Source: Histomonas meleagridis (Eukaryota; Parabasalia; Tritrichomonadida; Dientamoebidae). Taken from it: 64,000 nt of DNA. Shown piece after piece: positions 2 through 60,571 of this stretch (position 1 is the stretch's first letter; each line of letters starts with the position of its first letter). The notes below the pieces were generated by a model. The model had not been told where the DNA came from, ran no database searches, and worked only from the letters and a program-made list of their open reading frames with translations. A program made the translations under genes and the position numbers. Location: positions 248,001 through 312,000 of the forward strand of contig WSYJ01000156.1 in NCBI GenBank assembly GCA_020186115.1, written 5' to 3'.

Positions 2-2320
2 GAAATGTTAGATAGGGCGTCAAAGAAATTAGGTTTAGATCATGCATTACTTGATGGAGGAGATATTAGTTCAAGTCAAAAGCCTTTAGCTGCGCAAGAA
101 GTTGAGAAATTACTTCGAAGAGGTGTATATGATTTAGCTAATGAAGATGAAACAGAAATAGATAACTTTTGTTCAGAAGATATCGATCAAATATTAGAAA
201 GAAGATCAAAATCTTTGATACATAATGAGATTACTGGTGATTCGATATTTAATAAGGCAACTTTTAATGCTGAAAATGATGAATTAGATTTAAACGCAAA
301 AGATTTTTGGTCAAAAGCTTTACCACAATTACGTTTTTCTTCAGAAGAATTATTACCTGAAAGAAGATGTAAACAACAAAAAATGAAATTCTCAGATTAT
401 TCTGATGATGAAATTATCGAAAAGAAACATAAAAGGAAAATTAGTACATATAATCAACCAACTCCACGAGCTATATATCTAAAGTTAATGCATCATGGAT
501 ATAGTGGTAATAACTTTGAGAAAATGTTCATTTTAAAGATAGTACAAAAAGAAAATTTAACTCCTGAACAAGAGGCATTAATATTAAAAATATTAAATGT
601 CGATTCATTAGATTTTACAAGTGAAGAAATAGAAAACGCTGAAAAGAAGTTGTCTTCACCAATGAGTGAATTTAATGAAAAATGTGATACTTTAATTAAT
701 CGAATTATATTCTTTTATAACTTAAAACCTGTTTTAGGTTATATACAAAATGATTTATATGGTTGGCCAATGGGGACTTCTTTGGATCCTATGATCGATT
801 ATGCAATTTTATATGGTATTAACTTAAATGGAATTGGAAAAATTTCAAAAGTTTTACAAAATATTGAACTTGATAGAATGCCTAGAAATCTTTCGGATAA
901 AGCTGTGGCGAAAATTGCATATTCTTTAGTGGAATCTTTTCAAAATGAATTGTTGGATTTCGATACAAAAACATTACCAACAACTTTCATGAGACCGAAA
1001 GAATGGAAAGAAAAACATTTAAATTTGTTTAATAGAATGACAATGACAAACGATGAATTTATGTCACTTTTTAATACATTAACGTATTTGGGGTATCCTA
1101 AAATATGTAAAAGACCAAGTCTTTTTATAGAACAACAATTTAAAATAGTTGAAGATGTTGATCAAGGTGATGAAAATAATGGTCAAACTGATGGAGAAAA
1201 TGTTGAACAACAGAAACCTATTATTGAAAATCAACAACCTAATAATGATGAACAAGAACAAGAAGAAAATCCAGAAGAAGAAGAAACTGATTTCCAAAAG
1301 ATTCAAGAACTTTCTGGTTTGACTTGTATAGAATATAATACATTTAAAGATAATTGTGAATTATTATATTCATTTTATAAGAAAACTTTATCACAAAAAG
1401 AAGAAGATTCAGTGGTTGATCGCTTAGGCTCTTATGGTAACAAAGTTTGGATATCAAGATTTAGAAGAAACAATAGTGATTTAGAACGAATCCGATTTTT
1501 CGTTAACCACACAACACCAGACGAAGTTGAAATACTGAAAAGTATTCGAGTTTGGGATATAGGACCTAAGTGGTGGGGACCAAATTATGACGCTGCATTA
1601 CTTGTAGCTATTAATGATTATGGGATCCTGTTAACATCTGTTTGGTTATTTGATCCTGATCGACCATTTAGACAACGTATTCCAGAAAATTTAATTGATG
1701 ATTTCCAAAAAGCAGTTGAAGCAGAAAATGAAAGACTCCATTCACAAAAGCCCAAGAACCCTGGTGACTTTATGTTTATTTATAATGAAAAAGCTAGGAT
1801 ATCAAGGGCATTAATGTTGATGCAATTTGTTCAAACTAAATTACATAAGCAACTTAAGTTCATGCTAGATAATGATTCAAGTCAAAGTCAAGGTGAGATT
1901 GAAATCTCTGAATTACCTGCTACACCATTATATTTCGGTAATAGTTTTTATATCCAAGACTTTGGTACTTTCATATCTAAATCTTCTCAATATCCTGTTG
2001 GTTATATTTGTAGAAGATTATACTTTTCCATTAAAGATCCTTCTGAGAAGTCTTGGTATGAAGCATCAACAGCCATTAACGATAAGGGTAAATTTACCTT
2101 TATCGTCAAACACCTGTCAGAACCGAAAGTGGAATTTGTGAGCTTTACATCATCGGGCGTATGGGAACAATTAATTCAAGAAGTTCAAGCAGTAAGAGGT
2201 AAATTGGGACTTCCAAAAAGAAAGCATACAACAGTGTCAGGGCCTTCAATGTATGGTTTCTCTAATCCAAAGGTTGTGGAAATATTTAGATATATGAAGG
2301 CAAATTGCGAAGATGATTAA
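2..2320 (+). CDS. CHD-family chromatin remodelling ATPase, C-terminal part (5' truncated by window edge)
   Basis: The frame is already open at the window edge; the codon before the first Met reads Glu, so the N-terminal chromodomains and SNF2 ATPase lie outside the window. The visible start (EMLDRASKKLGLDHALL) and the following LLRRGVYDLANED and FCSEDIDQILERRS stretches match the conserved segment just after the helicase core of CHD6-9/Kismet-type proteins. About residues 390-430 are an acidic Glu/Gln/Asn-rich linker. After it comes a region around WDIGPKWWGPNYDAALLVA that resembles the SANT/SLIDE-like DNA-binding part of CHD proteins. Inferred role: ATP-dependent nucleosome remodelling in the nucleus. 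The stop is TAA. The family call is firm; the subfamily is not. Confidence 0.85.
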   Translation, partial: EMLDRASKKLGLDHALLDGGDISSSQKPLAAQEVEKLLRRGVYDLANEDETEIDNFCSEDIDQILERRSKSLIHNEITGDSIFNKATFNAENDELDLNAKDFWSKALPQLRFSSEELLPERRCKQQKMKFSDYSDDEIIEKKHKRKISTYNQPTPRAIYLKLMHHGYSGNNFEKMFILKIVQKENLTPEQEALILKILNVDSLDFTSEEIENAEKKLSSPMSEFNEKCDTLINRIIFFYNLKPVLGYIQNDLYGWPMGTSLDPMIDYAILYGINLNGIGKISKVLQNIELDRMPRNLSDKAVAKIAYSLVESFQNELLDFDTKTLPTTFMRPKEWKEKHLNLFNRMTMTNDEFMSLFNTLTYLGYPKICKRPSLFIEQQFKIVEDVDQGDENNGQTDGENVEQQKPIIENQQPNNDEQEQEENPEEEETDFQKIQELSGLTCIEYNTFKDNCELLYSFYKKTLSQKEEDSVVDRLGSYGNKVWISRFRRNNSDLERIRFFVNHTTPDEVEILKSIRVWDIGPKWWGPNYDAALLVAINDYGILLTSVWLFDPDRPFRQRIPENLIDDFQKAVEAENERLHSQKPKNPGDFMFIYNEKARISRALMLMQFVQTKLHKQLKFMLDNDSSQSQGEIEISELPATPLYFGNSFYIQDFGTFISKSSQYPVGYICRRLYFSIKDPSEKSWYEASTAINDKGKFTFIVKHLSEPKVEFVSFTSSGVWEQLIQEVQAVRGKLGLPKRKHTTVSGPSMYGFSNPKVVEIFRYMKANCEDD

Positions 2321-17189: not shown

Positions 17190-17600
17190 TGGTATTGGAT
17201 GCAATCATAAGTGCTGTTTAAAATAATTTAAAGAATTTTTAAATATTATTTTTGAATATTAAATTATTAAAATAAATTTTAAATAAAACAAATAAATATT
17301 TTTAGCACTAATATCAATTCCTTCTTGTTCGAGAAGTAATTTAACAATTTCTGTATGACCATTTTTAGATGCAATCATAAGTGCTGTTCTAAATAATTTA
17401 AATAATTTCCAAATATTTTTTTGAAATATTAAATTATTAAAATAAATTTTAAATAAAACAAACAAATATCTTTGGCATTAATATCAAATCCTTTTTGTTC
17501 AAGAAGTAATTTAACAATTTCTATATTAGATGCCCAAAAAAGTGCTGACCATAATATTTTAAATAATTTCCAAATACTATTTTAAAATACCAAATTATTT
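17190..17600 (-). pseudogene. Orphan ankyrin cassette array (three modules, no gene head)
   Basis: On the - strand there are two intact ankyrin modules: one at about 17295-17385 (TALMIASKNGHTEIVKLLLE) and one, nine bases shorter, at about 17470-17550 (SALFWASNIEIVKLLLEQ). A third is decayed and truncated at the low-coordinate end. The spacer between the two intact modules is 80 nt and has the same sequence type as in the larger arrays in this window. No DUF3447 head lies upstream, so this is a cut-off remnant of a larger gene. Confidence 0.75.
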
Positions 17601-17938
17601 TAATAAATATCAAAAATTGATTAAAAAAGTGACAAATTCTCTTAGATTTGCAAATCAGTTGACTTCCTTAAAACACACACGCAACAGAAAAAAAATCGTA
17701 TATTTATTATATTCGACTTTATATATGTAACAACCCAAATATAAGGCAATAAGTAGATAATACACAAAATGTTTTATTGTATTTTAATGAGTGATATCAC
17801 TTTAGTCTTTTAGACATAAAGAACCGAAATTTTGTGATAAAACACTTTTTTGTTATATTTTACTTCATAATTTGATAAAAATATTTTCTTTTAATATAAC
17901 AAACGAAAACTTAAAAAACAAAACAAATTATTTTCTAT
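17601..17938. other. Intergenic region
   Basis: AT-rich spacer downstream of the UTP21 gene. No gene or RNA seen. Confidence 0.5.
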
Positions 17939-20710: not shown

Positions 20711-23266
20711 TTATATTTCCCCTTTATAGATTTCATTAGAAAATGGATCCCCATCAATCTGTGGATTAATTTCCATTGGAGGATTATTAGTTGTATTTTC
20801 CTCATTTTTATTTTCCTCATTATTTTCACTGATAGTTTGTTGATTTTGTTTATAAAATAAAAGAATAAAAATTGTAATTATTAAGATAACAATTAAACAA
20901 ATAACAACAACAAGGATAATAATAGTATTAATACCTAATGGTTTACCATTATTTTGTTGTTTATTTATATTTAATATAGTAAAAACATCAGAATAAAATA
21001 TAAAATTTGTTGTATATTGCAAAATTGTTTGACTAGAATAAATAATAATCGTATTAATATAAATATATGATAAATTTACAAAGGATAGTGAAATAGTACT
21101 TAAATATGAAATTTGTTGTGTAATTGTTTGTGTAATTGAACATGAATTTATCATAGTTAAAGAATGTGAAAATGTTATATCAGATTGAAAAGAAGATATA
21201 AATGTATTTGACAGTGGAAATGTATTTGACAGTGGAAATATATTTGACAGTGGAAATGTATTTGAAGCTGACAATGAATTAGTAAAGGATTTTGACTGTG
21301 TAAATGAAAGTGTTGGCATTGGAGTGCAGTCTTTAAAAACACTACCTTTCAATACACTCATTTTACCAAATCTGGTATCATTATATGAATTCAAAACCAT
21401 AACAAATTTAGTTAAGATACCAGAAAATGTTTCATTTCCAATTGATGGTTGTATATCACCATAAAAATAAATACATGTAAGATTTTTACATTGATAAAAT
21501 GCAAAATCTCCTATATTCTTAACATTGCTTGGAATGACAATATTTTTTATATTCTTGCATTCATAAAAGGAATAATTTTCAATGATTTGTATAGAATTTG
21601 GGATTTCAAATGTTTCATTTGTGTTTCCATTAGGATAACAAATAAGATTTGTAAAATTTTTATTATAAATAACTCCATCATTGTTATAATTAGAATAAAA
21701 TTTATTTTCTTGTGATATATTAACACATTGAAGTTTTGTACATAAATTAAATACTCCAATTCCAATATGTGTAATCGATTTTGGAAATATAACATTTTCT
21801 AATGAATTACAATATTCAAATGCAAAATCATTTATTGCTATAATATTATTTCCAAATATAACATTTCCTAAATCATGATTTGAACTAAATGCTGATTTTC
21901 CTATTGATACAGTTGAATTTTGAAATGAAACAATAATTAAATAACAATCATAAAATGAGTGAACTCCAATTGTTTTTAATGATTTTGGAAACGTTATTAT
22001 TATTAATGAACATTCAGAAAATGCATAATCTCCGATTGATATTAATGAATTTGAAAATATAACATTTTCTAATTGTATATTTGACTGAAATGCAAAATCT
22101 CCAATTGAAATTAATGAATCTGGAAATGTAATATTACTAAAGAAACATGAAGAAAATGCAAAATCTCCAATCGTAGTAACTGAATTTGAGATAATAATAT
22201 TCTTTATATTCTCGCATTCATAAAAGGAATAATTTTCAATGATTTGAATAGAATTTGGGATTTCAAATGTTTCATTTGTGTTTCCATTAGGATAACAAAT
22301 AAGATTTGTAAAATTTTTATTATAAATAACTCCATCATTGTTATAATTAGAATAAAATTTATTTTCTTGTGATATATTAACACATTGAAGTTTTGTACAT
22401 AAATTAAATACTCCAATTCCAATATGTGTAATCGATTTTGGAAATATAACATTTTCTAATGAATTACAATATTCAAATGCAAAATCATTTATTGTGGTGA
22501 TATTATTTCCAAATGTAATATTATCTAAATCATGATTTGAACTAAATGCAGAAACGCCAATTGATTTTAATGAATTTTGAAATGTAATGTTGATTAAAGA
22601 ACAACTTTTGAATACATTGTTTTCAATTGTCTCTAAATTCTTTCCAAAAGTAATTGTTTTCAATGAAGTGCAGCGATAAAATGCTTTACTTTTAATTATA
22701 GTAACTGAATCCCCAATATCAACAGTAGTTACAGATGTCCAACCGTTAAATGTATTATTTGGAATAACAGTAACATTACCATTAATTATAATATGTTTGA
22801 TGCTTAAATTTTTTTTAGTTGGGAATTCATTTGAGTTAGAAATATTAAGTGTATCTGAAACATTAAATGAATAAATGAAGAAAACAACAAAAAAGAATGG
22901 AGCGAATTTAATATTACAGGATTTTTTAATGTGAATATTGTGAAATAAATAATTTGTTATTAATGATAATTTATGTTTGTTCTTAATAATGGAAAATAAA
23001 AGAAATGAAAATAAATACATTGATATAAAGATTTTGATTAAAAAATTTTCATAATATTCGAAGTAATCGAAAACCGAACACAAAGAAGAAGAATATACTT
23101 TTCGATAATAACAAGATATACATTGGTTTTGTGTAGATAAAAATAGATTGTTCAGAATTTTTAATGAATTATCAATCAAATTACATATATAATGAGGTTG
23201 TAATTGGATCAATTGAACCTTTTGATAAAACTCTTTGAAATTATTAATTAATACTGATTTTTGCAT
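20711..23266 (-). CDS. BspA-type leucine-rich repeat membrane protein with recent internal duplication
   Basis: The protein has 851 residues from the ATG at 23266 (the frame opens two codons earlier at a TTG). The N-terminal 130 residues are odd: no normal signal peptide at the very start, but a hydrophobic run after Met-85 (MYLFSFLLFSII, ATG at 23020) and another just before the LRRs (FAPFFFVVFFIYSF). The functional start may therefore be 23020. BspA/LRR_5 repeats follow, with a 356-bp block present twice, 657 bp apart. A stalk with three FPLSNT-like hexapeptides, a long Ser/Thr/Ile-rich region, and a transmembrane helix (IIILVVVICLIVILIITIFI) come next. The 45-residue tail ends with INPQIDGDPFSNEI. 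Likely a surface adhesin-like protein. Confidence 0.85.
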   Translation of the reverse strand: MQKSVLINNFKEFYQKVQLIQLQPHYICNLIDNSLKILNNLFLSTQNQCISCYYRKVYSSSLCSVFDYFEYYENFLIKIFISMYLFSFLLFSIIKNKHKLSLITNYLFHNIHIKKSCNIKFAPFFFVVFFIYSFNVSDTLNISNSNEFPTKKNLSIKHIIINGNVTVIPNNTFNGWTSVTTVDIGDSVTIIKSKAFYRCTSLKTITFGKNLETIENNVFKSCSLINITFQNSLKSIGVSAFSSNHDLDNITFGNNITTINDFAFEYCNSLENVIFPKSITHIGIGVFNLCTKLQCVNISQENKFYSNYNNDGVIYNKNFTNLICYPNGNTNETFEIPNSIQIIENYSFYECENIKNIIISNSVTTIGDFAFSSCFFSNITFPDSLISIGDFAFQSNIQLENVIFSNSLISIGDYAFSECSLIIITFPKSLKTIGVHSFYDCYLIIVSFQNSTVSIGKSAFSSNHDLGNVIFGNNIIAINDFAFEYCNSLENVIFPKSITHIGIGVFNLCTKLQCVNISQENKFYSNYNNDGVIYNKNFTNLICYPNGNTNETFEIPNSIQIIENYSFYECKNIKNIVIPSNVKNIGDFAFYQCKNLTCIYFYGDIQPSIGNETFSGILTKFVMVLNSYNDTRFGKMSVLKGSVFKDCTPMPTLSFTQSKSFTNSLSASNTFPLSNIFPLSNTFPLSNTFISSFQSDITFSHSLTMINSCSITQTITQQISYLSTISLSFVNLSYIYINTIIIYSSQTILQYTTNFIFYSDVFTILNINKQQNNGKPLGINTIIILVVVICLIVILIITIFILLFYKQNQQTISENNEENKNEENTTNNPPMEINPQIDGDPFSNEIYKGEI
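21201..21272 (-). repeat. 18-nt tandem repeat encoding the stalk
   Basis: Three near-perfect 18-nt units (21201-21254) and a fourth diverged one. They encode Phe-Pro-Leu-Ser-Asn-Thr hexapeptides in the pre-membrane stalk. The design resembles the stalk repeats at 15822 and 54100, but the codons differ. Confidence 0.85.
21540..21895 (-). repeat. Internal duplicated LRR block, copy 1 (copy 2 at 22197-22552)
   Basis: A block of about 356 bp that is almost identical to 22197-22552, offset by exactly 657 bp (219 codons). Over the central 249 bp only one or two differences are visible, far fewer than between other repeats of the gene. Confidence 0.9.
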
Positions 23267-23914
23267 AATCAATAATGAAAGTCAAAAGAAACATATTTTT
23301 TATGATATATCAAAATAAAATATTGATTTTGAAACATTGATATGTCTGGTTTTTATACAATTCAAATTTTTTAACCATTGAATAAACGAAAAAGTCTATG
23401 AATCATTCAATTTACGTTTAGCATGTTTGTAATATCAAGTGCTTTATTGATTGGGTTCACGTGTATTGTAATAATTGTGTTCCACAATGTATGAAATAAC
23501 CTGAATTTATCGAGAATGAATTTTAAAATTATATGTGTTAAAAAATATTAAATAGATAAAATGTAGAATATTCTTAGAATTGATTATTTTAAGTATCTTT
23601 TATAAGATGTGACTATATTTGAATCAAGATATTTCTAAGCGAAAAATTAAAAAACTCGATCAATTGTATGTGATAGAAAATATCCATATAAAGTCATTTA
23701 ATGCAAAATTGTTGTTTATTTGTGTAATACACTTATTCGTGAAAAAATCATTTCATCTTCTTGAAAATGAAGAAACTGATAAGTTAATCTTACGATAAGT
23801 TCTGTTTGTCGAACGCTGATTTACGATTAAATACAATTTAATATTTGATAAGTTTATACTCCCAAAACTCTTTTAACTCAAAAAGTTTTCAGAAAAGGCA
23901 AAGCAAAAAAACAC
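23267..23914. other. Divergent intergenic region
   Basis: AT-rich spacer upstream of the BspA gene and of the small gene at 23915. No clear initiator or RNA gene. Confidence 0.45.
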
Positions 23915-29233: not shown

Positions 29234-30392
29234 TTATTTAACTTTTCCTCCATGTTTTGTAAATATGTCAATAAGTTCTTGATTATTAAGTTCATATGCA
29301 ATTATAAGAGCATTAAAAAATAGTTCGAATAAATTTCTAATATTATTTTGAAATAGTAAATTATCAAAATAAATTTTAAATGAAGATATCAAATGTCTTT
29401 GATATTGACATCGATTCCTTCTTGTTCAAGAAGTAATTTTACAATTTCAATATGTTCTGTTTGACAAGCATACATAAGTGCAGTTCTAAACAAATCAAAT
29501 AATTTCCATGTGTTATTTTAGAATTCCAAAAATATAAAATAAACAGGAAATCAAATGTATAAATACCCTGAAAGTTGATATCAACTCCTTCTTGTTGAAG
29601 AAGTAATTTAACTATTTCTATGTTACCTGATCCCGAAGCTGAAATAATTGCCATTCCAAATATTTTGATTTAATATAATACAATAATATGAAACATAAAA
29701 TTATATAAATAAATTCTAAACAATTAAATTAAAAACCTTTCCAACATTCTTCAATTCCCTTTTTTTCAAGAAGTAATTTGACTATTTCGATATCACCTCC
29801 TGAAGATGCTGCTGTAAGTGCTGATTTTTATATTGTGTTTAAATTACAAACATAAGTTTTAAATATAAAACCATCAAAGCAAAACATCACATTATATAAA
29901 TAATCATTGGTGTCAAATATTTGAATATCTTTTCTAGCTAAAAGTAATTTAACGATTTCAATATTACCTTTCTTACAAGCCATCATTAATATTGTTGTGA
30001 AAAAAATATTGAAATACTATCAAATTTTTTAAATAAACACAAAACTAAAAATATAATCATCATAAGCGTTAACATTGATTAAATCTTGTTCAAGAAGAAT
30101 TTTAACAACTTCAATTTGATTATTTTCAACTGCATGCATAAGTGAACTGCAAAATATTTTAATTAAATTAAAAATAATAATTTGAAATCCAAAACAAATA
30201 AAATAAATATAAAATATTTTCAATAAATATCTTGTGCATTAACATCTATTCCTTCTTGTTCAAGAAGTAATTTTACAATACGAATAAAGCCATTTTTAGA
30301 TGCAACAATTAATGCAGTTTCAAATAATTTAATTAAATACCAAATATTTATATTAAATCCGAAATTAACAAAATAAAAATCAAACAAAAAAA
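29234..30392 (-). repeat. Ankyrin cassette array behind the 30393-31598 gene (seven modules)
   Basis: On the - strand the gene is followed by seven ankyrin modules of about 90 nt, none with a stop. They start ACTGCATTAATTG (about 30318), AGTTCACTT, ACAACAATA, TCAGCACTT, ATGGCAATT, ACTGCACTT and AATGCTCTT. AT-rich spacers separate them; those I measured are 80, 80, 60, about 78, 82 and 80 nt. The last module does not end in the usual GIDINAKD. It ends with TKHGGKVK and a TAA at 29234, a plausible true C-terminus. Read with the gene head, the array would continue the protein by seven repeats if the spacers were removed. Confidence 0.85.
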
Positions 30393-31598
30393 TTAAACAT
30401 TTTTAACATTAACATCATTTCCTTTCTCAATAAAAAGTTTAACAAGTTCATGATTCATTGAATTAGCTGAATAAGGTAAAATATCTTTCGGAATAGGATC
30501 AAGTTGAAGGAAATATTTAACTAAATATAAGTTACCACTATTTGCTGAAGTTTTTATGATTGAATCAGATATTTTCATAATGGAATTATTAACTTTCTTT
30601 CCTTCATTAATCAAAAATGATAAAATTTCAAAATTATAATAAGTAATACATTTTTTCTCTATTTCTTCTAAATTATTAATTTCTTCTAATTTATTTTCAT
30701 AAACATATTTAAAAATATCATTTTTATGGAATTGAATTGCTGTTTCATATACACCTTCAAATGTTGAATGATTTTGTTCACATAAATGAATAATTTCTTC
30801 ATTTCCACCTGCAATTGAATATTTTGCAGTGTCATTTACATTTGCTCCATTCATAAGTAAATATTTAAAGCATTTAACTGATCCAAAAAATGCTGCATAC
30901 TCAATTAATGTAACATCTTTTTGATTAATAAATGAACATCTTTCATAAAGTGATGGTTCAATTGTTTGATTAAAATCAAAATTTGTTTGTGATGATATTT
31001 CTTGAAGTTTTTCGATTTCATCATTTCGAATTATTTTTGCAATCTCATTTGGATTAACTCCTTCTTCAATTAATTGTTTATGAAGTTTCCAATCATTCTT
31101 TGATAATTCTTCATAATTTTTCTGCAATGTTTTGCAAATGTTATTAAAAATTTTATCTTTATATAAATAATAGTTTAATGGATCTTTATTGAATATTTTT
31201 ACTATTTTTGGATCACAATGAATAAAATATAAAAAATTTATATTTTCTACAACATCAGAAGAAATTATTTTCTCATCAATCATTTTTTGGAGAATATAAT
31301 TTGCTCCACTTTTAGGAAAGAAGTTAATTAATGTATCTACAAAAATTTGGAGAATATCTTCGTCACTGTTAGATAATTTTTTAATTTCACTTAAAAAATG
31401 TATTAAATTGTCTGGTTCATATTTATGAGAACAATAAAAATAAAATGAAATATTGCATATGATGAAGTAAAATGAAAATGGATATTCACAATCAAATAAT
31501 TTCATGATTTCTTCAGCTGATGAGTTAATGTTATCTTCTCGTAAGTCAAAAATTATGTGTTCTAAAGATAATAAGGTATCCATGTATTTTTTATCCAT
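30393..31598 (-). CDS. DUF3447-type ankyrin protein (head part)
   Basis: A 401-residue ATG-started frame. The N-terminal 170 residues are a helical region without an assigned fold. Then comes the segment that is nearly identical in the three genes of this type here (about residues 180-300: NPNEIAKIIRNDEIEKLQ, EPSLYERCSFIN, LIEYAAFFGSVKCFKYLL, CEQNHSTFEGVYETAI), the DUF3447 region common in trichomonads. Degenerate ankyrin repeats end at NDVNVKN. The frame then runs two codons into an 80-nt spacer and stops, while more ankyrin modules follow downstream. Cytosolic scaffold-type protein; partner unknown. Confidence 0.85.
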   Translation of the reverse strand: MDKKYMDTLLSLEHIIFDLREDNINSSAEEIMKLFDCEYPFSFYFIICNISFYFYCSHKYEPDNLIHFLSEIKKLSNSDEDILQIFVDTLINFFPKSGANYILQKMIDEKIISSDVVENINFLYFIHCDPKIVKIFNKDPLNYYLYKDKIFNNICKTLQKNYEELSKNDWKLHKQLIEEGVNPNEIAKIIRNDEIEKLQEISSQTNFDFNQTIEPSLYERCSFINQKDVTLIEYAAFFGSVKCFKYLLMNGANVNDTAKYSIAGGNEEIIHLCEQNHSTFEGVYETAIQFHKNDIFKYVYENKLEEINNLEEIEKKCITYYNFEILSFLINEGKKVNNSIMKISDSIIKTSANSGNLYLVKYFLQLDPIPKDILPYSANSMNHELVKLFIEKGNDVNVKNV

Positions 31599-35607: not shown

Positions 35608-35639
35608 GCCGATATGGATTTTTTGAAATAAAATTGACA

Positions 35640-37054
35640 ATGTTTGTTCGAACAAAACAAAACAAAAATCAATGGGAAAAATGTCTAACAATAAAAGATT
35701 TAATATTTAATCTGAATCAAGAAAATATCTCACAATCAAAAAATAAAATTCTTGATATTTTTGATTACAAATATCCAATAACTTTTAATATAATTCTTAG
35801 TCAATTGATATATATATTATTTGATGTGAAAGTAAATGATTTTGACATAGAATTATATATAAACTTGATTAAAGAAATTGAAGCAATCGAGGAAAGTAAT
35901 AATATAAAATCAAAAATATTAGATAAATTTGTTAAAACTAACACAAAAGAAGCTTGTTATCTTCTTGCAAAATTGATTGAATATTCCTTAATTGATCTAA
36001 AAAGTATTCAAGATAATCTAAACTTTCCTTATTTTGTTCATTATCTTCCAGAAAAAAGAATTGAAATGTTAAAGAAATATGGATTTTTTAATTCATTTCA
36101 ATCAGGCACAAATAATTATGAAGAACTCTCAAGGAATAATTTTGAAGTTCACAAACAATTAATTGAAGAAGGAGTTAATCCAAATGAAATTGCAAAAATA
36201 ATTCGAAATGATGAAATCGAAAAACTTCAAGAAATATCATCACAAACAAATTTTGATTTTGATCAAACAATTGAACCATCACTTTATGAAAGATGTTCAT
36301 TTATTAACAAAGAAGACGTTACATTAATTGATTATGCAGCATTTTTGGATCAGTTAAATGCTTTAAATATTTACTTATGAATGGAGCAAAGGTTAATGAC
36401 ACTGCAAAATATTCAAGTGCAGGTGGCAGTGAAGAACTTGTTCATTTGTGTGAACAAAACCATTCAACATTTGAAGGTGTATATGAAACAGCAATTCAAT
36501 TCCATAAAAATGATATTTTTAAATATGTTTATGAAAATAAATTAGAAGAAATTAATAATTTAGAAGAAATAGAGAAAAAATGTATTACTTATTATAATTT
36601 TGAAATTTTTTTATATTTGCAAAAAGAAGGAATGAAAATTACTGATGCTATTATTAATGAAGCAGCAAGAATTGGTAATTTATATCTTGTTGAATATTTT
36701 CTTGAAAATCGTCAAATTCCAAAAGATATAATAATTTCTCCATCTCTATCAAAAAATATTGAACTCGTTGATTTTATTATTAAACAAGATGGAATTGATA
36801 TCAATATTAAAGACATTTTTTTTATAATATATGAAATTTATTTTAATTGTTTGATTTTTCGAAAAATAATTTGGAAATTGTTTGGGTTATTTTTTACACA
36901 ACCTATGATTGTAAGTAAATATGGTTACGTAGATATAGTAAAATTACTTCTTGAAAAAGAAGGAATTGATATTAATGCAAAAAATATTTTTGTGTTTGAC
37001 TTAATATTTATTGAATTAATTTTCTATTTCTTTTTGATGTTTGGAAATTATTAA
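35640..37054 (+). pseudogene. DUF3447-type ankyrin gene head with a one-base frameshift
   Basis: The frame opens with TTG at 35634; the first ATG is 35640. The N-terminal 160 residues differ from the sister genes. The segment IAKIIRNDEIEKLQEISSQT is identical to theirs. At 36342-36346 this copy has five T (GCATTTTTGG) where both intact sisters have six. Translation therefore leaves the family sequence (YAAFLDQLNALNIYL) and stops. The family frame resumes at 36377 (MNGAKVNDTAKYSSAGG) and runs through further ankyrin repeats. The first spacer here is 81 nt, in frame, and is read through (IWKLFGLFFTQPMIVS). The rest of the gene is well kept, so this is a recent loss or a sequencing error in a homopolymer. 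Confidence 0.8.
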
Positions 37055-37988
37055 AATTATTTGAAACAGCATTTATGTTAGCATCTGCAAATGGTAAAGC
37101 AGAAATAGTTAAAATACTACTTGAGCAAAAAGGAATTGATATTAATGCTAAAAATATTTAATTGTTTTATTAAATGCATATTTTAACAATTTTATATTTT
37201 AAAATAATATTTGGAAATTATACAAACAATTTGATACAGCACTTATTAGAGCATCTTTTTATGGTCATACAGAAATAGTTAAATTACTTCTTGGACAAGA
37301 AGGAATTGATGTTAATGCTAAAAATAAAATTTATTTGTTTTGTTTTATATTTCAAAATAATATTTGGAAATTATTTAAAATATTTCAAACAGCACTTATA
37401 TACGCAACTTCAAATGATAACACAGAAATAGTTAAATTAATTCTTGAACATAAAGAAACAGATATTAATATAACAAATATATATTTATGTAATTTTTCTT
37501 TTACTTTAATGATTTGGTAATTATATTTTTTATAACGAAATTATTTCAAATATTTTTTACATCACTTATATTAGCTTCTGAAAAAGGTAATATAGAAATA
37601 GTTAAATTGCTTCCTGAACAAAAAGGAATTGATGTTAATGCTAAAGATATTTTTTTATTTTAAATTGTTTTGTTTTGAATAATTTGATATTTTGAAATAA
37701 AATTTGAAAATTATTTAAATTATTTAAATCAGCACTTATGTTTGCATCTGAAAATGGTTATACAGAAATAGTTAAATTACTTCTTGAACAAGAAGGAATT
37801 GATATTAATGCTAAATCTATTTATTTGTTTTATTTGAAATATATATTGTGAATTTGATTTTTCAAAATAATATCCGAAATTTAAATATATTATTGAAAAC
37901 AGCACTTATGTATGCAACTGAGAAAGGTTACAAAAAAATTATGGAATTATTCGAACAAAATCCACAAACTTTAAAAATAAATCAATAA
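37055..37988 (+). repeat. Ankyrin cassette array behind the 35640 gene (six further modules)
   Basis: Modules of 90 nt begin with ACAGCATTTATG (37066), ACAGCACTTATT, ACAGCACTTATA, ACATCACTTATA, TCAGCACTTATG and ACAGCACTTATG. None has an internal stop. Spacers, from the one just before 37066 onward, are 80, 80, 63, 80, 80 and 80 nt. Several place a stop one or two codons after the module (AATATTTAATTG). The last module ends in its own C-terminus (MELFEQNPQTLKINQ, TAA at 37986-37988) rather than in GIDINAKD. This mirrors the arrays at 29234 and 59006. Confidence 0.88.
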
Positions 37989-40025: not shown

Positions 40026-43000
40026 TCATATGAATGTGAATGCTTTTGGCGCATCTTCAATGTTTATCACCTTAACATTGAAAAAGACAGGCGGGTCCTG
40101 TAATGACTCATTTACTTTTGCATAACATGAATCATAACATTCTCCTTCATTTGAAGCTTTCACGGCCATTGTATGAAATTGTATTTTAGTATCTCCTCTT
40201 AGTTGGTATACAACTAAACATTCGAAGATTGAGTTTTTAGCCAAATTTGTAATTTTACTTTCTCCATATCCAAATTCTTGTTTTGATGTTAGAAGCGAAT
40301 ACATTGAGTATTTCATGTAGAAATTCATTACATCATTTTCGGTGAATGATAATCTAAATGATCCGATTGGAGTTATGAAATCATATTCATCTTCATTTAC
40401 AACAGATACATTCGTAAAGAAAACAGGGATTCCAAAAGAGTCCTTTGAAGACGAAATAAGAAAATAGTCACCTATAAGATAAGCATGTATATGTTCTTGA
40501 TTCATAAAAGGTATAGTTCTAGGTAACTCAAAACCGTTTCCAAACGTCTTCATCACGTTCAAAAAGTTCTGTGGTGAAAAAATGAATTTCTGATGGCGGT
40601 TAATTTGTGAGATTATACAGTCGATTTTAATTGAAAGGTGCTCGTTTATATTGAGGTTTGAAACTAACGTTTTTTCGTAGGGAGACGTTAATTGCTCAAG
40701 AACAGAATTTTTAGAAGATTTAAATATTGGCGAAATTTTTTGGATTTTTTGATGGAAGTTTGAAATGATTTGATTAAATTTTTGGAAGTCATCGATATCT
40801 TTAATTAAAACAGGATTAAACCTCTTCAAAAATGAAAACACATAAAAATGCCATTGAAGAGGAAAAGCGAAAACGAAATAAGCTTGAAGATGATTAAAAT
40901 GGAATGATAACCCATTTGTCAAAGTATTAATTGAAGCGACTGCATTATTTTGGAAAGTATCAAGATAAGAATCAACATCACCAATTATTAAACAATTTAA
41001 CATTATATGAATCGATGTCATAAAGTTATATTCATGATTATTCATAATCGATTTAAATTTAGTTGATGAAGATTCGATTAAATTTATTATCTTCATGAAG
41101 TTTTGTATAAATAAATTCGATTGATCATTTCGTATTAATTCGGATAAACTTAATTTGATTAACGCACTAATATGTTGTGTTAAAAAACAAAAATCTAAAA
41201 GATCTTTCGCAAATTTTTGTCGCTTCCAAAAATGTAATAACAAATTAATAACCTTTTGATCAGTTGCTAATAAATAAGGTTGTTCATTAGGCTTTTTATC
41301 AGTTAAATTCATTCCTTCATTTAATAACAATGAACATAATTCATAATTATTAAGTTGTGCTGCTAAATGTAATGGTGTTAAACCATTTGATGTAACACTA
41401 TTAATATCAGCTCCTTTTTCTAATAAGAATTTAACAATTTCAATCGAATTTATCGATACTGCACAATGTAATGGTGTGAAATGTGATTTATTCGATGAAT
41501 TTACTGAATAACCATTTTCGATTAATTTGGTTGCAACATTTAAATCTTTATGTTGTACTGCTGTAAGTAATTTATTTTCAACGCCAAGTGAATGTAAGAA
41601 ATCCATACATTCATTAGAATGTGATTCAAACGCATAATCTAATGGTGTTAATCCATCTTTATTAGGTAATGATAATAATGAATAATCATCGATAATAGAT
41701 ATAATTAATTTTAATGTTTGTACTGAACCATTTTTACATAAGATATGTATAGGTGTTTCTCCTTTATTATTAATATAATCAGAAGTAATTCGAACATTAT
41801 TCGCTAAGTCTTGAATACATTTAAATACTAAAGGATCATCGACATAATGAAATAATGAATTACCATAAATATCTTGATAATATAATGACGCATTTCTATT
41901 AACTAAAACAGCTACGAAATTACCTTTTTGTAACATAGCTGCTAATAGTAATGGCGTTCGACCTTCTGCATCCGGTATATCGATTAAATCATTAAATTCA
42001 TTTAAACATTCCGCAATTATTCGACTATTTAATGTGAATAAAATAGCTGCATGTAATATAGTACAACCTCTTAAAATTCCATTAGTCTTCTTAAGAAATA
42101 ATTCAACTGATTTCGAATTTAATGAATCATTATAATTTTGTGAATATAATTGTAATGTTTTATTAAATTCGATTTTTTGTTCTTCTCCTTTATTATAATC
42201 GAAATAAGAAATTTTCGATTCTATTACATGTTTTGTTTCATAAAGTTTTTTAACGTTTATTGTGTATTTCATTTCTTTAGATTTATCATTAAAACGTAAT
42301 AAATTATTACTCATAAATGAATATAATACTGGTGTCATACCAAATGAATCAACACTATTTATATCAGAGTTTGATTTAATAGCTTCAATAGCTATTTGAC
42401 TATCAGCACGAACTGCATATGATAATGGTATTAATCCTTCATTATCTTTACCATCGAAATCGAAATCTTTCTTTAATATATTAATCATTAATGATGATGA
42501 ACTTGCTAAATAATGAAATAATGATGCGCCTAATGAATCCCTAATATTAAAATTAGGATATTCCTTAAATAAAGCTGGAATTAATTCTTCCGCTTTTCGT
42601 TTTATTAAATATACAATGATACTATCGCCATCTGAATTAACATATTCGAAATCTAATGTGACTTTAAATAATCGCTCTAAATATTTTGGTCGATAAAAAT
42701 CAGATGCTAAAAAACATGCTTTCGATGCTGTTTGTGAATTAGAGTATTCTAATAATACTAAAAATGTTTGATATAAATCAAAAATGACACTATAATCAAG
42801 TGGTGTCATTTGATATTTGTCTTCAATGTTCGGTGATGCACCAGCTTGAATTAATGTATGACATAATTGATAATATCCTCGTGAAGCTGCGATATGAAGA
42901 ACTGTACTTTTGTTGATTTCTTCTTTGAAATTAACTTTGTTATAATATGGAGACCGATTTGAAAAAAGATGAAATGAGACTCCTCTTAAACTATTTTCAT

Positions 43001-43628
43001 ATACTGATGAATGGAATGATGGTAATGCTTTATGCTCTAATAGTAATTTGATCATTTCTTCATTAGCCATATGTTTAGCTATATCAAGTGGTGAACAAAA
43101 TTGTAATGTAGTGTTGGAATTTGGAATATTAATTATTGGATCACAACTGATAACAACATTGTTAATTTGTGGGCAATTATGTTCTAACAAAAATCGAGCA
43201 GTGTCAATATGCCCATAATAAACGGCAAAATGAAGATTACTCCAATTTTTTGATGTCAAATCTTTCATCATAACATCTGATTTCATAAGTATTTCAACCA
43301 TGTTAGTATCTCCTTTAATGGAGGCTATGTGGCTTGGTGTAAGAGAATCAATGTTATAAAAATGAAGAGATCGAAATGCTCCGACAAGAAATTTAGCAGA
43401 TGAATAAGAAGAACTTGCTGCAGCATAATGGAGAGCTGAATTCCCAAACAAATCTGATTGAATAAGAGGATTTGTTCCTGAATCTGCCATGCAATCCATT
43501 AATTCTTTATCTCGGTCTTGAAATGCATATAAATGAATTAATGTTGTACCATTATTAAGTTGATCTGAATGCTTTCCAAATGAATAAAATGAAAGAATTG
43601 CATCTTTGTTGCTCATTTCTTTTGACAT
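40026..43628 (-). CDS. Large ankyrin-repeat protein (1200 residues) with unassigned C-terminal domain
   Basis: ATG start; no signal peptide or membrane helix. From about residue 25 to 815 there are some 18-20 classical ankyrin repeats (GNSALHYAAASSS, LTPSHIASIKGDTNMVEILM, FTPLHCAVSINSIEIVKFLL, LTPLHLAAQLNNYELCSLLL), spaced regularly and of the TPLHxAA type. They are unlike the DUF3447 modules elsewhere in the window. The last 380 residues are a helical domain (about 820-1000) followed by a beta-rich part (GDYFLISSSKDSFGIPVFF, FDFITPIGSFRLSF-like). The order helix bundle then beta barrel is reminiscent of a DH-PH pair in RhoGEFs, but I cannot confirm it. Likely a cytosolic scaffold or signalling protein. 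Confidence 0.85.
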   Translation of the reverse strand: MSKEMSNKDAILSFYSFGKHSDQLNNGTTLIHLYAFQDRDKELMDCMADSGTNPLIQSDLFGNSALHYAAASSSYSSAKFLVGAFRSLHFYNIDSLTPSHIASIKGDTNMVEILMKSDVMMKDLTSKNWSNLHFAVYYGHIDTARFLLEHNCPQINNVVISCDPIINIPNSNTTLQFCSPLDIAKHMANEEMIKLLLEHKALPSFHSSVYENSLRGVSFHLFSNRSPYYNKVNFKEEINKSTVLHIAASRGYYQLCHTLIQAGASPNIEDKYQMTPLDYSVIFDLYQTFLVLLEYSNSQTASKACFLASDFYRPKYLERLFKVTLDFEYVNSDGDSIIVYLIKRKAEELIPALFKEYPNFNIRDSLGASLFHYLASSSSLMINILKKDFDFDGKDNEGLIPLSYAVRADSQIAIEAIKSNSDINSVDSFGMTPVLYSFMSNNLLRFNDKSKEMKYTINVKKLYETKHVIESKISYFDYNKGEEQKIEFNKTLQLYSQNYNDSLNSKSVELFLKKTNGILRGCTILHAAILFTLNSRIIAECLNEFNDLIDIPDAEGRTPLLLAAMLQKGNFVAVLVNRNASLYYQDIYGNSLFHYVDDPLVFKCIQDLANNVRITSDYINNKGETPIHILCKNGSVQTLKLIISIIDDYSLLSLPNKDGLTPLDYAFESHSNECMDFLHSLGVENKLLTAVQHKDLNVATKLIENGYSVNSSNKSHFTPLHCAVSINSIEIVKFLLEKGADINSVTSNGLTPLHLAAQLNNYELCSLLLNEGMNLTDKKPNEQPYLLATDQKVINLLLHFWKRQKFAKDLLDFCFLTQHISALIKLSLSELIRNDQSNLFIQNFMKIINLIESSSTKFKSIMNNHEYNFMTSIHIMLNCLIIGDVDSYLDTFQNNAVASINTLTNGLSFHFNHLQAYFVFAFPLQWHFYVFSFLKRFNPVLIKDIDDFQKFNQIISNFHQKIQKISPIFKSSKNSVLEQLTSPYEKTLVSNLNINEHLSIKIDCIISQINRHQKFIFSPQNFLNVMKTFGNGFELPRTIPFMNQEHIHAYLIGDYFLISSSKDSFGIPVFFTNVSVVNEDEYDFITPIGSFRLSFTENDVMNFYMKYSMYSLLTSKQEFGYGESKITNLAKNSIFECLVVYQLRGDTKIQFHTMAVKASNEGECYDSCYAKVNESLQDPPVFFNVKVINIEDAPKAFTFI

Positions 43629-46714: not shown

Positions 46715-47435
46715 TTTGCAAAATGTTCTGTTCAATAGCGAACCTCAAAATTTGGGAGTTATTCAAACAATTTATTCCCTGTTTTGAATTGTTTATTAAA
46801 ATTTTTGAATAGCATGTCGACACGGGATTAAACGATGTTTAGCGGTTAACTTTCAAACGATAATTTTACAGTAACTTGTTTGACCGTTTATCGAAAAGCA
46901 AAATGGCGTTCAATATCATGCTTCATTTAAATTAATTTGAATCAAACAACAATTGATATCAAAACTATATCCAGGATAATATACGCCAAGGAACAACAAG
47001 AACTCGTGAAACTCTCAGAAAAAATTTACAACAAATCACCACTGTTTGTTTCAGGTTCATTTTTTGCTCATCCTTGCTTTTTAATAAAAAAGGCCCAAAA
47101 GTATATTTCTGTTGTGGTTGCTGTTTATTTCTGACTCATTGCTCAGATCTTCTAATGAAAGGTCAGAAAAACGAATTTGTATTATAGATTAGTCAAAAAC
47201 ACCATTTGGCGACCGTTAAGGAAATTCATTTAATGAAATAAAAATATCTCATTACATCCTTGAAATTATTAAATAATTAAATAAAATATATATTATAAAT
47301 ATATAATTAAAATGATATATCAAGTCAAATTTATTAGAATTAAGTGTATAATTTAAAAATTAAGTTTTAAAAAAAAAAATTAATGATTTTTTATTGATGT
47401 ATCCAAATGTTTTTGCCTTTGGAGATGTGAAATAC
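46715..47435. other. Upstream region of the CAP gene
   Basis: It holds MYB-like words (GCGGTTAAC near 46840, AAACGATAA near 46856, GACCGTTTA near 46880) about 110-170 bases before the CAP start. A 65-codon TTG-started frame at 46937 is not called. The rest is AT-rich with no gene. Confidence 0.4.
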
Positions 47436-47640
47436 TTATATGATGAAATTACTTCATGAACATGAGAGAATTGATATTAATGATAAAGATGTTCATCAAT
47501 TTAATATTTCATTTTAAGATTCTATTTGGTAATTATTTAAATGATTTCAAACAGTATTTACATATGCTTCACCAAGAAACAATAAAAAATATTATAATAA
47601 ATTCTTGAATATTTTATGCATAGAGTTGAGAAAAACTGGG
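47436..47640 (+). pseudogene. Orphan ankyrin module relic
   Basis: A module end (MMKLLHEHERIDINDKD) is followed by a shortened spacer of the standard type (TTTGGTAATTATTTAAATGAT) and the start of another module (ACAGTATTTACATATGC) that degenerates. No gene head is present. Confidence 0.6.
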
Positions 47641-49322: not shown

Positions 49323-49585
49323 TATTATGAATGATTGTAAACTTCAAAAGAAAACTTTAACTTGTGTAACAGAGTCAGGAAATTTCGAATTAATGAAATT
49401 TCTTCTTGAACAAAAAGGAATTGATATTAACTATGGAAATTTTTATTTAATTTTAGAATTCCTAAATCATATTTAGGAACTATTTAAATTATTTGAAACA
49501 GCACTTATGATTTCATCTTCAAATGGTCATATAGATATAGTTAAATTACTTCATGGACACAAAGGAATTGATTCAAATATTTAGA
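49323..49585 (+). pseudogene. Orphan ankyrin cassettes (two modules)
   Basis: Module one (KTLTCVTESGNFELMKFLLE, ending GIDINYGN), a 57-nt spacer of the standard type, then module two (TALMISSSNGHIDIVKLLHG), which stops after SNI. No head gene. Same module-spacer grammar as the large arrays. Confidence 0.65.
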
Positions 49586-50071
49586 GATCTATAAATAAAA
49601 AATAAATCAAATTCGAAAAAACATTTTCATTTTTTACTTCTCATTTACGATTAGTTTAATATTATAATATTAAAAAATATTATAGATATTATTTTGCTTC
49701 GATTTTTAATTAGTATATAATGAATAAATAATATCATGTTTCGCATCTTTACGTCAAAAATGAAAAAATATAAAATTTCATATTTTTGATCATTTTGTGA
49801 ATAAAATAAAAATTACATCTTATTTATAGACATATGAGTAAAATATAATTAAATCAAATGAAAAATGTTAGAAATCCCATTTTTTATGAATTCATTTTAA
49901 ACATAAAAAATTGAACAAAACAAATCACATATAAGATATCAGTACATAAAGGAGAGCATATTTATATATATATATTTAAAAAAAAAAAATTGAAAATTTA
50001 AATTTGTCTGCACCTCTATTTATCGTTCCATTTTTCATGTAAATAACAGTATACTCTATAAAGGAAAAAAT
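49586..50071. other. Intergenic region
   Basis: Extremely AT-rich, with an AT dinucleotide run and a poly-A run near 49980. No gene seen. Confidence 0.5.
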
Positions 50072-57555: not shown

Positions 57556-57626
57556 TGCATCGCCCGGGAATCGGACCCGGACCCCCAGCTTGGCAAGCTG
57601 AAATTCTACCATTAGACCAGCGATGC
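57556..57626 (-). tRNA. tRNA-Gly (anticodon GCC)
   Basis: On the - strand the 7-bp acceptor stem GCATCGC/GCGATGC is perfect and followed by discriminator A (57556). The D-arm contains TGGTCTAATGGT (A box). The anticodon stem TCAGC/GCTGG (one G-T pair) encloses the loop TTGCCAA, anticodon GCC. The T-arm CCGGG/CCCGG encloses TCCGATT (B box). It has 71 nt without CCA and no intron. T-rich runs (57541-57555 on the + strand are A-rich) provide the Pol III terminator. It reads GGC and GGT glycine codons. Confidence 0.97.
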
Positions 57627-57703: not shown

Positions 57704-59005
57704 ATGTCATATGCAAAAAAAAAGTATTCAAAAAAAAGAAATAATGTTTCTAACCGCAAATGCCCGTCTTTGGAATTGCTTTCAGAACTTGAACATATTA
57801 TACTTAATTTAACTGAAGAAAATCTCGATTCATCCGTTCAACAAATAATGAAATATTTTGATATAAATATTTCTTATGCATTTAATTTTGTAATTGTTAA
57901 TTTAATTTACTATGCATTTTCATCAAAAAATAATATAATTGATATATATTTAAATTTTTTAAATACTCTAGAAATTAAGGAGGAAATGAAAATTAACAAA
58001 CCCGAAATAAAAGAAATTTTTATCAAATATATTTCTTCAATTCAAGAAAAAGAATCTTATTTTATAATTAACAAAATGATTGAACTAAATTTAATTGATA
58101 AAAATATTACAAGAGACATCAAATCTAAATATTTTGCACATTATAAAATTAAGGAAGAAAATCAAAAAAGAAATAGAAATGATCCATTTGAAAGAACTTT
58201 TTTCAAAAATTATGAAGAATTATCAAAGAATGATTGGGAACTTCATAAACAATTAATTAAAGAAGGGCGTAATCCAAATGAGATTGCAAAAATAATTCGA
58301 AATGATGAAATCGAAAAACTTCAAGAAATATCATCACAAACAAATTTTGATTTTAATCAAACAATTGAGCCATCACTTTATGAAAGATGTGATTTTATAA
58401 ATCATTCTAATGTTACGTTAATTGAGTATGCAGCATTTTTTGGATCAGTTAAATGCTTTAAATATTTACTTATAAATAATGCAAAATTAGAAAACACAGG
58501 TAAATATGCAGTTGCAGGTGGAAATGAAGAAATTATTCATTTATGTGAACAAAATCATTCATCATTTGAAGGTGCATATGAAACAGCAATTAGATTCCAT
58601 AGAAATGATATATTTCGTTATTTATATGATAATGAGGTTGGTGGAAAAATTTTAAAAAGGCCTACTATATTTGATGATTTAGGAAATATTATGATTTCAG
58701 GGAATACAATTTTAGCTGATTTAGGGTGTCTTTGCATTAATAAGGGAAGTTTTCAAATTTTTTCGTTTTTGGTCGGAATAGGTATGAAAATTAACGATTC
58801 TATTATCAATGAATCATTAAAAAATCATAATTTATATCTTATTCAATATTTTCTTCAAAACTCATACAATGTAAATAATATACTTTTTAAAGTTATGGAA
58901 TTTGGAAATATTGAATATGTTGAATATATTCTTAAGCAAAAATACATTTATATCAATGCAAAAAACTTTGAATTGTTTTATTTGATATTTGAATTCGTGA
59001 TTTGA
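57704..59005 (+). CDS. DUF3447-type ankyrin protein (head part)
   Basis: The frame opens at 57623 inside the tRNA gene, so that start is impossible. ATGs at 57641 and 57704 remain; I prefer 57704 (MSYAKKKYSKKRNN), because TCAATTAAAAA just upstream can act as an initiator. This gives 433 residues. The N-terminal 170 residues are helical and diverged from the sister genes. EIAKIIRNDEIEKLQEISSQ, EPSLYERCDFIN and YAAFFGSVKCFKYLL are nearly identical to them. Ankyrin-like repeats run to YINAKN (58966), after which the frame enters an 80-nt spacer and stops at 59005. Ten more modules follow. Confidence 0.83.
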   Translation: MSYAKKKYSKKRNNVSNRKCPSLELLSELEHIILNLTEENLDSSVQQIMKYFDINISYAFNFVIVNLIYYAFSSKNNIIDIYLNFLNTLEIKEEMKINKPEIKEIFIKYISSIQEKESYFIINKMIELNLIDKNITRDIKSKYFAHYKIKEENQKRNRNDPFERTFFKNYEELSKNDWELHKQLIKEGRNPNEIAKIIRNDEIEKLQEISSQTNFDFNQTIEPSLYERCDFINHSNVTLIEYAAFFGSVKCFKYLLINNAKLENTGKYAVAGGNEEIIHLCEQNHSSFEGAYETAIRFHRNDIFRYLYDNEVGGKILKRPTIFDDLGNIMISGNTILADLGCLCINKGSFQIFSFLVGIGMKINDSIINESLKNHNLYLIQYFLQNSYNVNNILFKVMEFGNIEYVEYILKQKYIYINAKNFELFYLIFEFVI

Positions 59006-60571
59006 TATTTCAATATAATATTTGGAATTTATTTAAGATATTTAAAACACCACTTATTATAGCAATTGAAAAATGTTACACAGAAATTGTTAAATTACTT
59101 CTCGGAACAATCGGAATTGATGTAAATGCGAAAGATATACAAATATTTTATTTAAAATTATTTACAATAATTTGAAACTTCAAAAATATATTTGGAATTT
59201 ATTTAAACTATTTAAATCGGCGCTTATTAAAGCAATTGAAAGGTGTAATACAGAAATAGTTAAATTACTTCTTGAAAGAAAAGGTATCGATGTTCATGTA
59301 TTAGATGATTATTTTATTTTATTAAAATTAATTTGGTTAATTTAAAGTTTCAAAATAATATTTGGGATTTGTTTAAACTTTATAGATCACTAGATATTAT
59401 TGCAGCTAAATATGGTAATACAGAAATATTTAAATTACTTCTTGAACGAAAAATAATTTCCAATATAAAAAATGTTATTTTGCTTTAAATGAAATTTATT
59501 TTATTAATTTCATATTTTGATATAACATTTAGAATTTAAACAAATTATTTCAAACAGCACTAATGTTAGCATCTAAAAAAGGAAATATAGGAATAGTTAA
59601 ATTAATTCTTGAACAAAAAGGAATTGATATTAATGCTAGAAATATATAATTGTTTTAATTGATATTTGTTTTGATAGTATAGAAATTCAAAACAATATTT
59701 GGAAATTATTTAAAATATTTTGGACATCACTTCTGTTTGCATCGTCTAATGGTCATACAGAAATAGTTAAATTACTTTTTGAACAAGAAGGAATTGATAT
59801 TAATGCTAAAAATATATAATTGTTTTATTTGATATTTATTTTAATAATATAGAAATTCAAAACAATATTTGGAAATTATTTAAAATATTTCAAACAGCAC
59901 TTATTTTAGCATCTCAAAATGGCCATATTGAAATAGTTAAATTTCTTGAGCATAAAAAATTATGTGATACAGAAGATATTTGTTTTAAGAACTTGAAATA
60001 TCAAAATAATTTTTATAAATTGCCAAAATTATTTTCGAGTGCACTATTTTATGCATCACTAAACGGTCACACAGAAATAGTTAAATTGCTTATTGAACAA
60101 GGAAAAATTGTTAAAAATGATAAAAAAGTAAAATTATTTAATATAATGTTTCTTTCAATAATTTAATATTTCAAAATATTCGACGCATCACTTATTTTTG
60201 CATCAAAAAAAGGATATACTGAAATAGTTAAATTGCTTCTAGGGATAGAAGGAATTAATATTAATACAAAATTTGATATTTCATAATAATATTTGGAAAT
60301 TCTTTAAATTATTTAAAACAGCACTTATGTGGGCATCTCAAAATGGTTATATAGAAATAGTCAAATTACTTCTTGAACAAAAGGGAATTGATATTAATGC
60401 TAAAGATATTTATTTGTTTTATTTTGGATTTATTTTAATATTTTTATATTTCAAAATAGTATTTGGAAATTATTTAAATTATTTGATACAGCACTTAACA
60501 AAGCTATGAATTATTCTCATGGCGAAATAGCAAGATTTATTCTGAAATATTCAAAGGATATTAAAAAATAA
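59006..60571 (+). repeat. Ankyrin cassette array behind the 57704 gene (ten modules)
   Basis: Ten ankyrin modules without internal stops start at about 59047 (ACACCACTTATT), 59217, 59387, 59557, 59727, 59897, and so on. They are 170 nt apart in the first six because each 90-nt module is followed by an 80-nt spacer. Later spacers are 60, 60 and 46 nt, then 80 nt again. Several spacers put a stop directly after the module (AATATATAATTG). The last module departs from the consensus and ends ARFILKYSKDIKK with TAA at 60569-60571, a credible C-terminus. Confidence 0.9.

Follow-up and report, generated by a model that had tools for sequence, protein, structure and literature searches.

Ankyrin-repeat genes of Histomonas meleagridis with 17-nucleotide inserts between single loop codons: candidate ultrashort non-canonical introns

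The DNA stretch analysed here (the window) comprises 64,000 nucleotides (nt) of the Histomonas meleagridis genome assembly GCA_020186115.1 (contig WSYJ01000156.1, positions 248,001 to 312,000 of the forward strand). Near its end lies an ankyrin-repeat gene on the plus strand, which begins with an N-terminal frame (57704..59005) that contains DUF3447 and ankyrin matches and ends in the first of a series of short inserts. The array proper (58877..60571) consists of ankyrin modules joined by loops with 17-nt inserts, and its last repeat carries an in-frame stop codon. Two further array genes share this organization. In the second (35634..37988, plus strand), the N-terminal region of 35634-37054 is divided into two open reading frames (35634-36380 and 36377-37054), which probably reflects a frameshift in this copy; the same region is open in the other two array genes. 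The third (29234..31598, minus strand) has modules and inserts that are strongly diverged. Each of these three arrays with an N-terminal gene is closed by an in-frame stop.

A position-weight scan of both strands of the window detected 28 modules of 90 nt, 25 of which lie inside four arrays: seven at 36725-37818, ten at 58877-60407, six at 29395-30318, and two at 17298-17557, the last belonging to an orphan array without an N-terminal gene (17190..17610, minus strand, ends approximate). An earlier note on this DNA had described the modules of these arrays as open despite frame-breaking spacers of mostly 80 nt, and indeed none of the 25 contains an internal stop, versus two of the three modules outside the arrays. 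When single modules of 30 amino acids were compared with the Pfam family Ank (PF00023), all four scored above the cut-off of 21.1, at 27.0-38.4 bits. The 22 gaps between neighbouring modules measured 80 nt in 13 cases, 81, 63, and 57 nt in two cases each, and 77, 54, and 43 nt once each. With two more found by eye (60408-60487 and 37819-37898), the earlier count of at least 15 spacers of exactly 80 nt was reproduced; a module lacking 9 nt (minus strand, 17557) and TAA triplets near modules were likewise recovered, the triplets being sited within the first 17-nt insert. A wider sample consisted of the window and 20 loci of 10 kilobases, picked from ankyrin matches covering two modules in the assembly (43,276,120 bases in 121 contigs). 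It yielded 218 modules, 208 open and 10 with a stop, and gaps of 80 (64 cases), 63 (40), 60 (17), 81 (11), 57 (7), 77 (5), and 83 nt (5) besides nine rarer ones. The earlier observation is thus confirmed beyond chance, with a repeating unit that is smaller than first thought.

This unit becomes apparent in the spacer, whose 80 nt are made up of four AT-rich 17-nt inserts with one codon after each, giving the layout D-[17]-x-[17]-x-[17]-G-[17]-x-TAL. Read without the inserts, it is an ordinary ankyrin loop, DxxGxTPLH. In the loop at 59137..59216 (plus strand), for example, inserts at 59137-59153, 59157-59173, 59177-59193, and 59197-59213 alternate with single codons for K (59154-59156), E (59174-59176), G (GGA, 59194-59196), and K (59214-59216). 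The loop codons of a second 80-nt loop (59814..59893, plus strand) read D-R-G-Q, and those of a 63-nt loop with three inserts (37326..37388, plus strand) read K-Y-G-Q. The 63-nt class follows the order codon, insert, codon, insert, GGA, insert, codon, and the residues of both classes have a common order: N or K, often D, Y, or N, then G, then a variable residue.

Loops were collected by searching the window and every locus but L044-L048 with a profile. The resulting 259 loops comprise 51 of a near-identical family B, counted apart, and 208 others, here called family A; loops with a weak or unclear reading (those of L028, L030, and L037 and one of L038) were excluded from the main evidence. Among 55 distinct 80-nt units of family A, sequence diversity along the spacer averages 0.28 and peaks at 0.39-0.71 in the triplets 18-20, 38-40, and 78-80, the triplet 58-60 is mostly GGA, and the base preceding the last triplet is T in 55 of 55. 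Loop lengths follow the formula 12 + 17n nt in 160 of the 208 family-A loops, with 48 loops of 12 nt, 3 of 29 nt, 10 of 46 nt, 40 of 63 nt, and 59 of 80 nt; the same relation holds for 119 of 157 family-A gaps. Different lengths are mixed within one array, as in L043, where successive loops measure 80, 80, 63, 12, 80, 46, 80, and 80 nt and the 12-nt loop reads N-R-G-K. Inserts are therefore gained and lost singly while the four loop codons are kept. This is the behaviour of an intron in the broad sense of a sequence that can be present or absent without altering the encoded residues, as loops of the lengths 12 + 17n contain the same kind of residues, with 48 of 208 loops at other lengths. Many of the latter are one codon off (83, 66, 60, 43, or 77 nt) or one insert base off (81 nt).

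The residue preferences persist whatever the number of inserts. With the codon layout fixed by length class, and the 48 loops of other lengths left out, glycine occupies codon 3 in 31 of 47 distinct loops without insert and, as the number of inserts rises from one to four, in 2 of 3, 4 of 10, 30 of 36, and 43 of 57. In the window, 9 of 14 exact-length loops have this glycine, in agreement with the DxxGx pattern of ankyrin loops, though the two-insert loops with their 4 of 10 conform less well. Among four-insert loops, codon 1 specifies N, K, or D in 42 of 57 and codon 2 specifies D, Y, or N in 28 of 57; among three-insert loops, the counts are 30 of 36 for codon 1 and 22 of 36 for codon 2.

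Similar inserts also occur outside the family represented in the window. Divergent ankyrin genes, far from this family, contain one or two inserts at the corresponding loop position, mostly adjoining the Gly codon (L022, L032, L035, and L055, two loops each of L025 and L040, and three clear loops of L038). Several of these inserts begin with GT, not AT, a few measure 18 or 19 nt, and some of the loops (e.g., those of L022 and one of L038) are without both GT and AG. In family B (L001, L005, and L009), the modules are parted by tandem 20-nt units that each consist of a 17-nt insert and a variable triplet, with runs of up to 45 units (L009) among the loci examined. One loop motif, composed of the Gly codon and parts of its flanking inserts, has 5161 genome matches at up to three mismatches, versus two for the reversed pattern. 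These matches, which were not individually checked, suggest well over ten thousand inserts genome-wide, given up to four per loop. A general count of frame pairs gave 27 at a connecting step of 17 nt, versus 26 at 14 nt and 21 at 20 nt, and is no evidence by itself. The same scan brought up frame breaks in the N-terminal regions of L003, L004, L014, L016, and L019, which resemble ordinary frameshifts and were left out of account.

The codons between the inserts are free of stops. Under the fixed layout, none of the 612 loop codons is a stop, against 35.0 expected from the base composition of these columns; insert-bearing loops contribute 0 of 424 (about 23 expected) and insert-free loops the remaining 12 of the expectation. 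This column count was preferred to a free parse of 147 distinct loops, which gave one stop in 585 codons but applied a stop penalty. As a comb of triplets, the codons contain no stop in the 80-nt class (0/228) or the 63-nt class (0/144), and other combs contain up to 110 of 228. In family B, the triplets between two successive inserts include 0 stops in 241, with 31.5 expected (10 loci, copies not collapsed). Thus, the inserts cannot be translated in frame, and the intervening codons retain the residues of an ankyrin loop and lack stops. Plain translation of the spacer was considered and rejected: the module frame stays open through 18 of 36 distinct 63-nt spacers but only 1 of 17 of 60 nt, and 80-nt spacers shift the frame. 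The earlier view of apparently translated modules with interruptions that are not readable in line therefore stands, but not its corollary that the whole spacer is non-coding, because 12 of the 80 bases form four codons with ankyrin-loop preferences, which removal of the whole spacer would leave unselected.

Comparison of 51 pairs of near-identical units (modules differing by at most 10%) adds a pattern of turnover. Differences amount to 10.8% of bases in the inserts and 3.9% in the Gly codon; the values are 51, 52, and 58% for loop codons 1, 2, and 4 and 31% for the exposed module residues 5, 8, 9, and 11. The turnover at loop codons 1, 2, and 4 is as expected of diversifying contact residues. 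Like module residues 5, 8, 9, and 11, these codons are situated on the usual contact surface of ankyrin repeats, which makes it probable that the arrays code for a large family of binding proteins that have diversified. The dN/dS comparison (ratio of nonsynonymous to synonymous rates; Nei-Gojobori method, stop-bearing modules excluded) that the earlier note had proposed gave a divided answer. Values of 1.01-1.33 for whole modules speak partly against coding, and by position the ratio is 0.73-0.87 at structural and 1.34-1.63 at exposed sites.

We propose that these genes encode ankyrin-repeat proteins with a 34-residue repeat, in which up to four AT-rich 17-nt inserts at codon boundaries of the inter-repeat loop isolate the four loop codons (D-x-x-G-x-T). 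The inserts would leave the transcript singly, as ultrashort non-canonical introns that mostly start with a purine, often as AT or GT, mostly end in TTT, and have neither AG nor CTAAC. The mature message would then contain exons of one codon each, and the protein would have ankyrin loops of the ordinary kind. From the sequence evidence, we assign this reading a probability of roughly two thirds. Among the options offered earlier (removal from RNA, ribosomal bypass, or silent cassettes), removal from RNA, by whatever route, is the one we infer to be most likely, with inserts leaving singly rather than as whole spacers; bypass appears less likely. More speculative is a further step, which we consider possible but doubtful: that many thousands of 17-nt non-GT-AG introns are removed from a huge ankyrin family, with a single codon per remaining exon, and that the conserved inserts isolate hypervariable contact codons, so that recombination among array units can reassort codons one at a time, independently of one another, within a homogenised backbone. 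This would amount to one-amino-acid exon shuffling that generates binding diversity.

Several points weigh against removal of the inserts as introns, foremost the lack of splice signals. Among 235 distinct inserts from exact-length loops, 203 begin with A or G and 161 end in TTT, but none has the form GT..AG (one ends in AG) and none contains the branch motif CTAAC (TAAC occurs in six). When spacers are extended by nine flanking bases per side, 119 of 165 do contain some GT with an AG behind it. The inserts were recognised in ankyrin loops only, and we know of no precedent for single-codon exons four times per loop. The copies are related, so the counts are no independent trials; five other triplet combs also have only 0-2 stops in 228, owing to insert composition, and the residues therefore weigh more than the comb's stop count alone. 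The 48 family-A loops off the 12 + 17n series and the whole-module dN/dS have to be added. Constraint on the modules is not strong and some arrays are broken or decayed; the strong AT bias lowers the apparent dS.

The ordinary introns of the Histomonas genome are also unlike the 17-nt inserts. A spliceosome is present, as PRP8 was found in a frame of 2333 amino acids, and a U6 candidate scores 43.7 bits against a gathering score of 44. The Trichomonas 3' motif ACTAACACACAG has three genome matches versus two for the reversed control, and the pattern GTATGT..CTAAC..AG has 47, below the 183 of its reversed control; about a dozen of the 47 are intron-like by eye, at 22-25 nt. Neither pattern occurs in the spacers. 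Ordinary introns of 22-25 nt with the form GTATGTTT..TTCTAAC..AG lie at C107:137946 and C40:8962. A kinase gene (L046) has a 60-nt intron, GTATGT..TCTAACACATAG, at 611-670, and two more (L047 and L048) break at the same residue, as judged from their frames only. Of 133 kinase matches in the genome, 126 are without stops and 7 have them; the three fetched (L046-L048) break like ordinary introns. The 17-nt inserts are thus not spread over all genes.

Among the alternatives, the arrays might be silent, either decayed or serving as donor cassettes that recombine into expressed genes, with their openness a mere sign of recent inheritance. The existence of orphan and frame-broken arrays, the stops in 10 of 218 modules, a whole-module dN/dS near 1, and copy numbers in the thousands would fit this idea. 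Signs of pseudogene decay are mixed: 208 of 218 modules are open and the 424 loop codons have no stop, but whole-module dN/dS is near 1 and some arrays are broken. Nevertheless, we consider silence unlikely, for stops are absent from the 424 codons of insert-bearing loops (about 23 expected) and the 241 triplets of family B (31.5 expected), and Gly codons persist while their neighbours turn over. Moreover, a donor cassette, once copied, would carry its own inserts along.

Less probable still is that the message retains the inserts and that each of them is skipped by a hopping ribosome, in the style of bypassing in Magnusiomyces mitochondria. Such a mechanism needs no splice signals, and bypassing in yeast mitochondria, which deals with 81 inserts, can in some cases do without matched codons (PMC5009743). 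The matched codons of classical bypassing are absent here, however: the codon preceding an insert and the insert's last triplet share the first two bases 4 times in 320, versus 8.4 after shuffling, and this last triplet is TTT in 261 of 320. We also know of no precedent for dozens of hops per nuclear message, four in a row one codon apart.

That each whole spacer is one ordinary spliceosomal intron is very improbable. Introns of 56-196 nt are known in Trichomonas (PMC12316389), the kinase intron mentioned above has 60 nt, and 29 of 154 distinct spacers contain GT and then AG. Of these 154, however, 34 lack any GT, 97 lack AG, and none contains ACTAAC, ACACAG, or GTATGT; furthermore, loop codons within the spacer are under selection and isolated single 17-nt inserts occur. 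Elimination of the inserts at the DNA level, in an expressed copy of the genome, is just as improbable, since despite sequence predictions identical to those of removal from RNA the fetched sequence gives no pointer to such a process, nor do we know of one in parabasalids.

The remaining features of the window put the array genes into context. An ankyrin gene of 1200 amino acids (40026..43628, minus strand) is open over its full length, and inserts are therefore not present in every ankyrin gene. Besides the array at 17190-17610 (minus strand), orphan modules without an N-terminal gene lie at 47401-47490 (plus strand) and, as a pair, at 49351..49587 (plus strand, one module with a stop); two of the orphan modules have stops. 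A gene for tRNA-Gly(GCC) (57556-57626, minus strand) is situated directly upstream of the array gene at 57704. Long uninterrupted frames at 2693-6082 (minus), 13452-16133 (plus), and 20711-23272 (minus strand) resemble genes for surface proteins of the BspA-type leucine-rich-repeat kind.

A search with the N-terminal frame retrieved 54 proteins, including three annotated Histomonas proteins named caskin (P0012, P0014, and P0017). P0012 terminates in INAQNI, which is at the first insert, and four unnamed proteins from ENA (P0001, P0002, P0007, and P0010) close with INAKDI or a similar sequence, at the expected start of the first insert. Distant relatives have uninterrupted loops in two of the three read (P0020 and P0023; e.g., IYGMTPLH and QKGNTALH). 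A very large family of diversified binding proteins is thus probably cut short in the present annotation, as in caskin P0012, and this would apply to the poultry parasite whether the inserts are removed or bypassed. One ankyrin protein is among those quantified in a Histomonas proteome study (PMC10063853), but it could not be tied to the array genes. If the inserts leave the RNA, they would represent an intron class of 17 nt without GT-AG or branch motif and with one-codon exons, which would probe the minimal size of introns and exons and the machinery of their removal. Their number would likely be more than ten times that of the 573 introns annotated in the assembly of a virulent strain (43,414,808 bases in 187 contigs; PMC8529796). 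If ribosomes skip the inserts instead, no other case of bypassing known to us would come close in extent.

A full-text search of the open-licence PMC literature found no report of such inserts. The closest known sequences are the 'type B' introns of Trichomonas (23-28 nt; PMC12316389) and the 22-25-nt introns of the Histomonas genome, which are likewise ultrashort and T-rich and belong to the same organismal group; a further likeness is that several inserts of the divergent genes begin with GT. In contrast to these short parabasalid introns, the inserts have 17 nt, no AG end, and no CTAAC, occur up to four times at successive codon boundaries, and were recognised in ankyrin loops only. The introns of Stentor (15-16 nt; PMC9505925) and Bigelowiella (18 nt; PMC12316389) are similar in length and AT-richness, but most Stentor introns have GU..AG borders and, at position 10 or 11, a branch A, and single-codon exons are not described in section 2.1 of that paper (PMC9505925). 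Euglenid nonconventional introns also lack canonical borders, and their ends are joined by structure (PMC6221363); the Histomonas inserts have nearly constant length and borders and show no enrichment of the euglenid-type +4..6/-8..-6 pairing, the sole pairing tested (16 of 235 inserts versus 21.1 after shuffling). The bypassing elements of Magnusiomyces mitochondria and phage T4 gene 60 are non-coding, frame-breaking inserts in otherwise intact genes, too (PMC5009743). Those of Histomonas differ from them in residing in nuclear genes, in their 17 nt, and in being repeated around single codons. Each known kind considered thus fails on a tested feature: parabasalid and Stentor-type introns on GT..AG, euglenid introns on end pairing, and bypassing elements on matched codons. 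An undescribed class of ultrashort introns with single-codon exons would be the best reading of these sequences, its newness hinging on removal from RNA. At the protein level, the resemblance is to ankyrin-repeat proteins, to the engineered ankyrins known as DARPins, and to the repeats of TAL effectors, all of which are built of near-identical repeats, 33-34 residues long, whose contact positions vary; in Histomonas, unlike in any of these, the loop codons are split by inserts within the gene.
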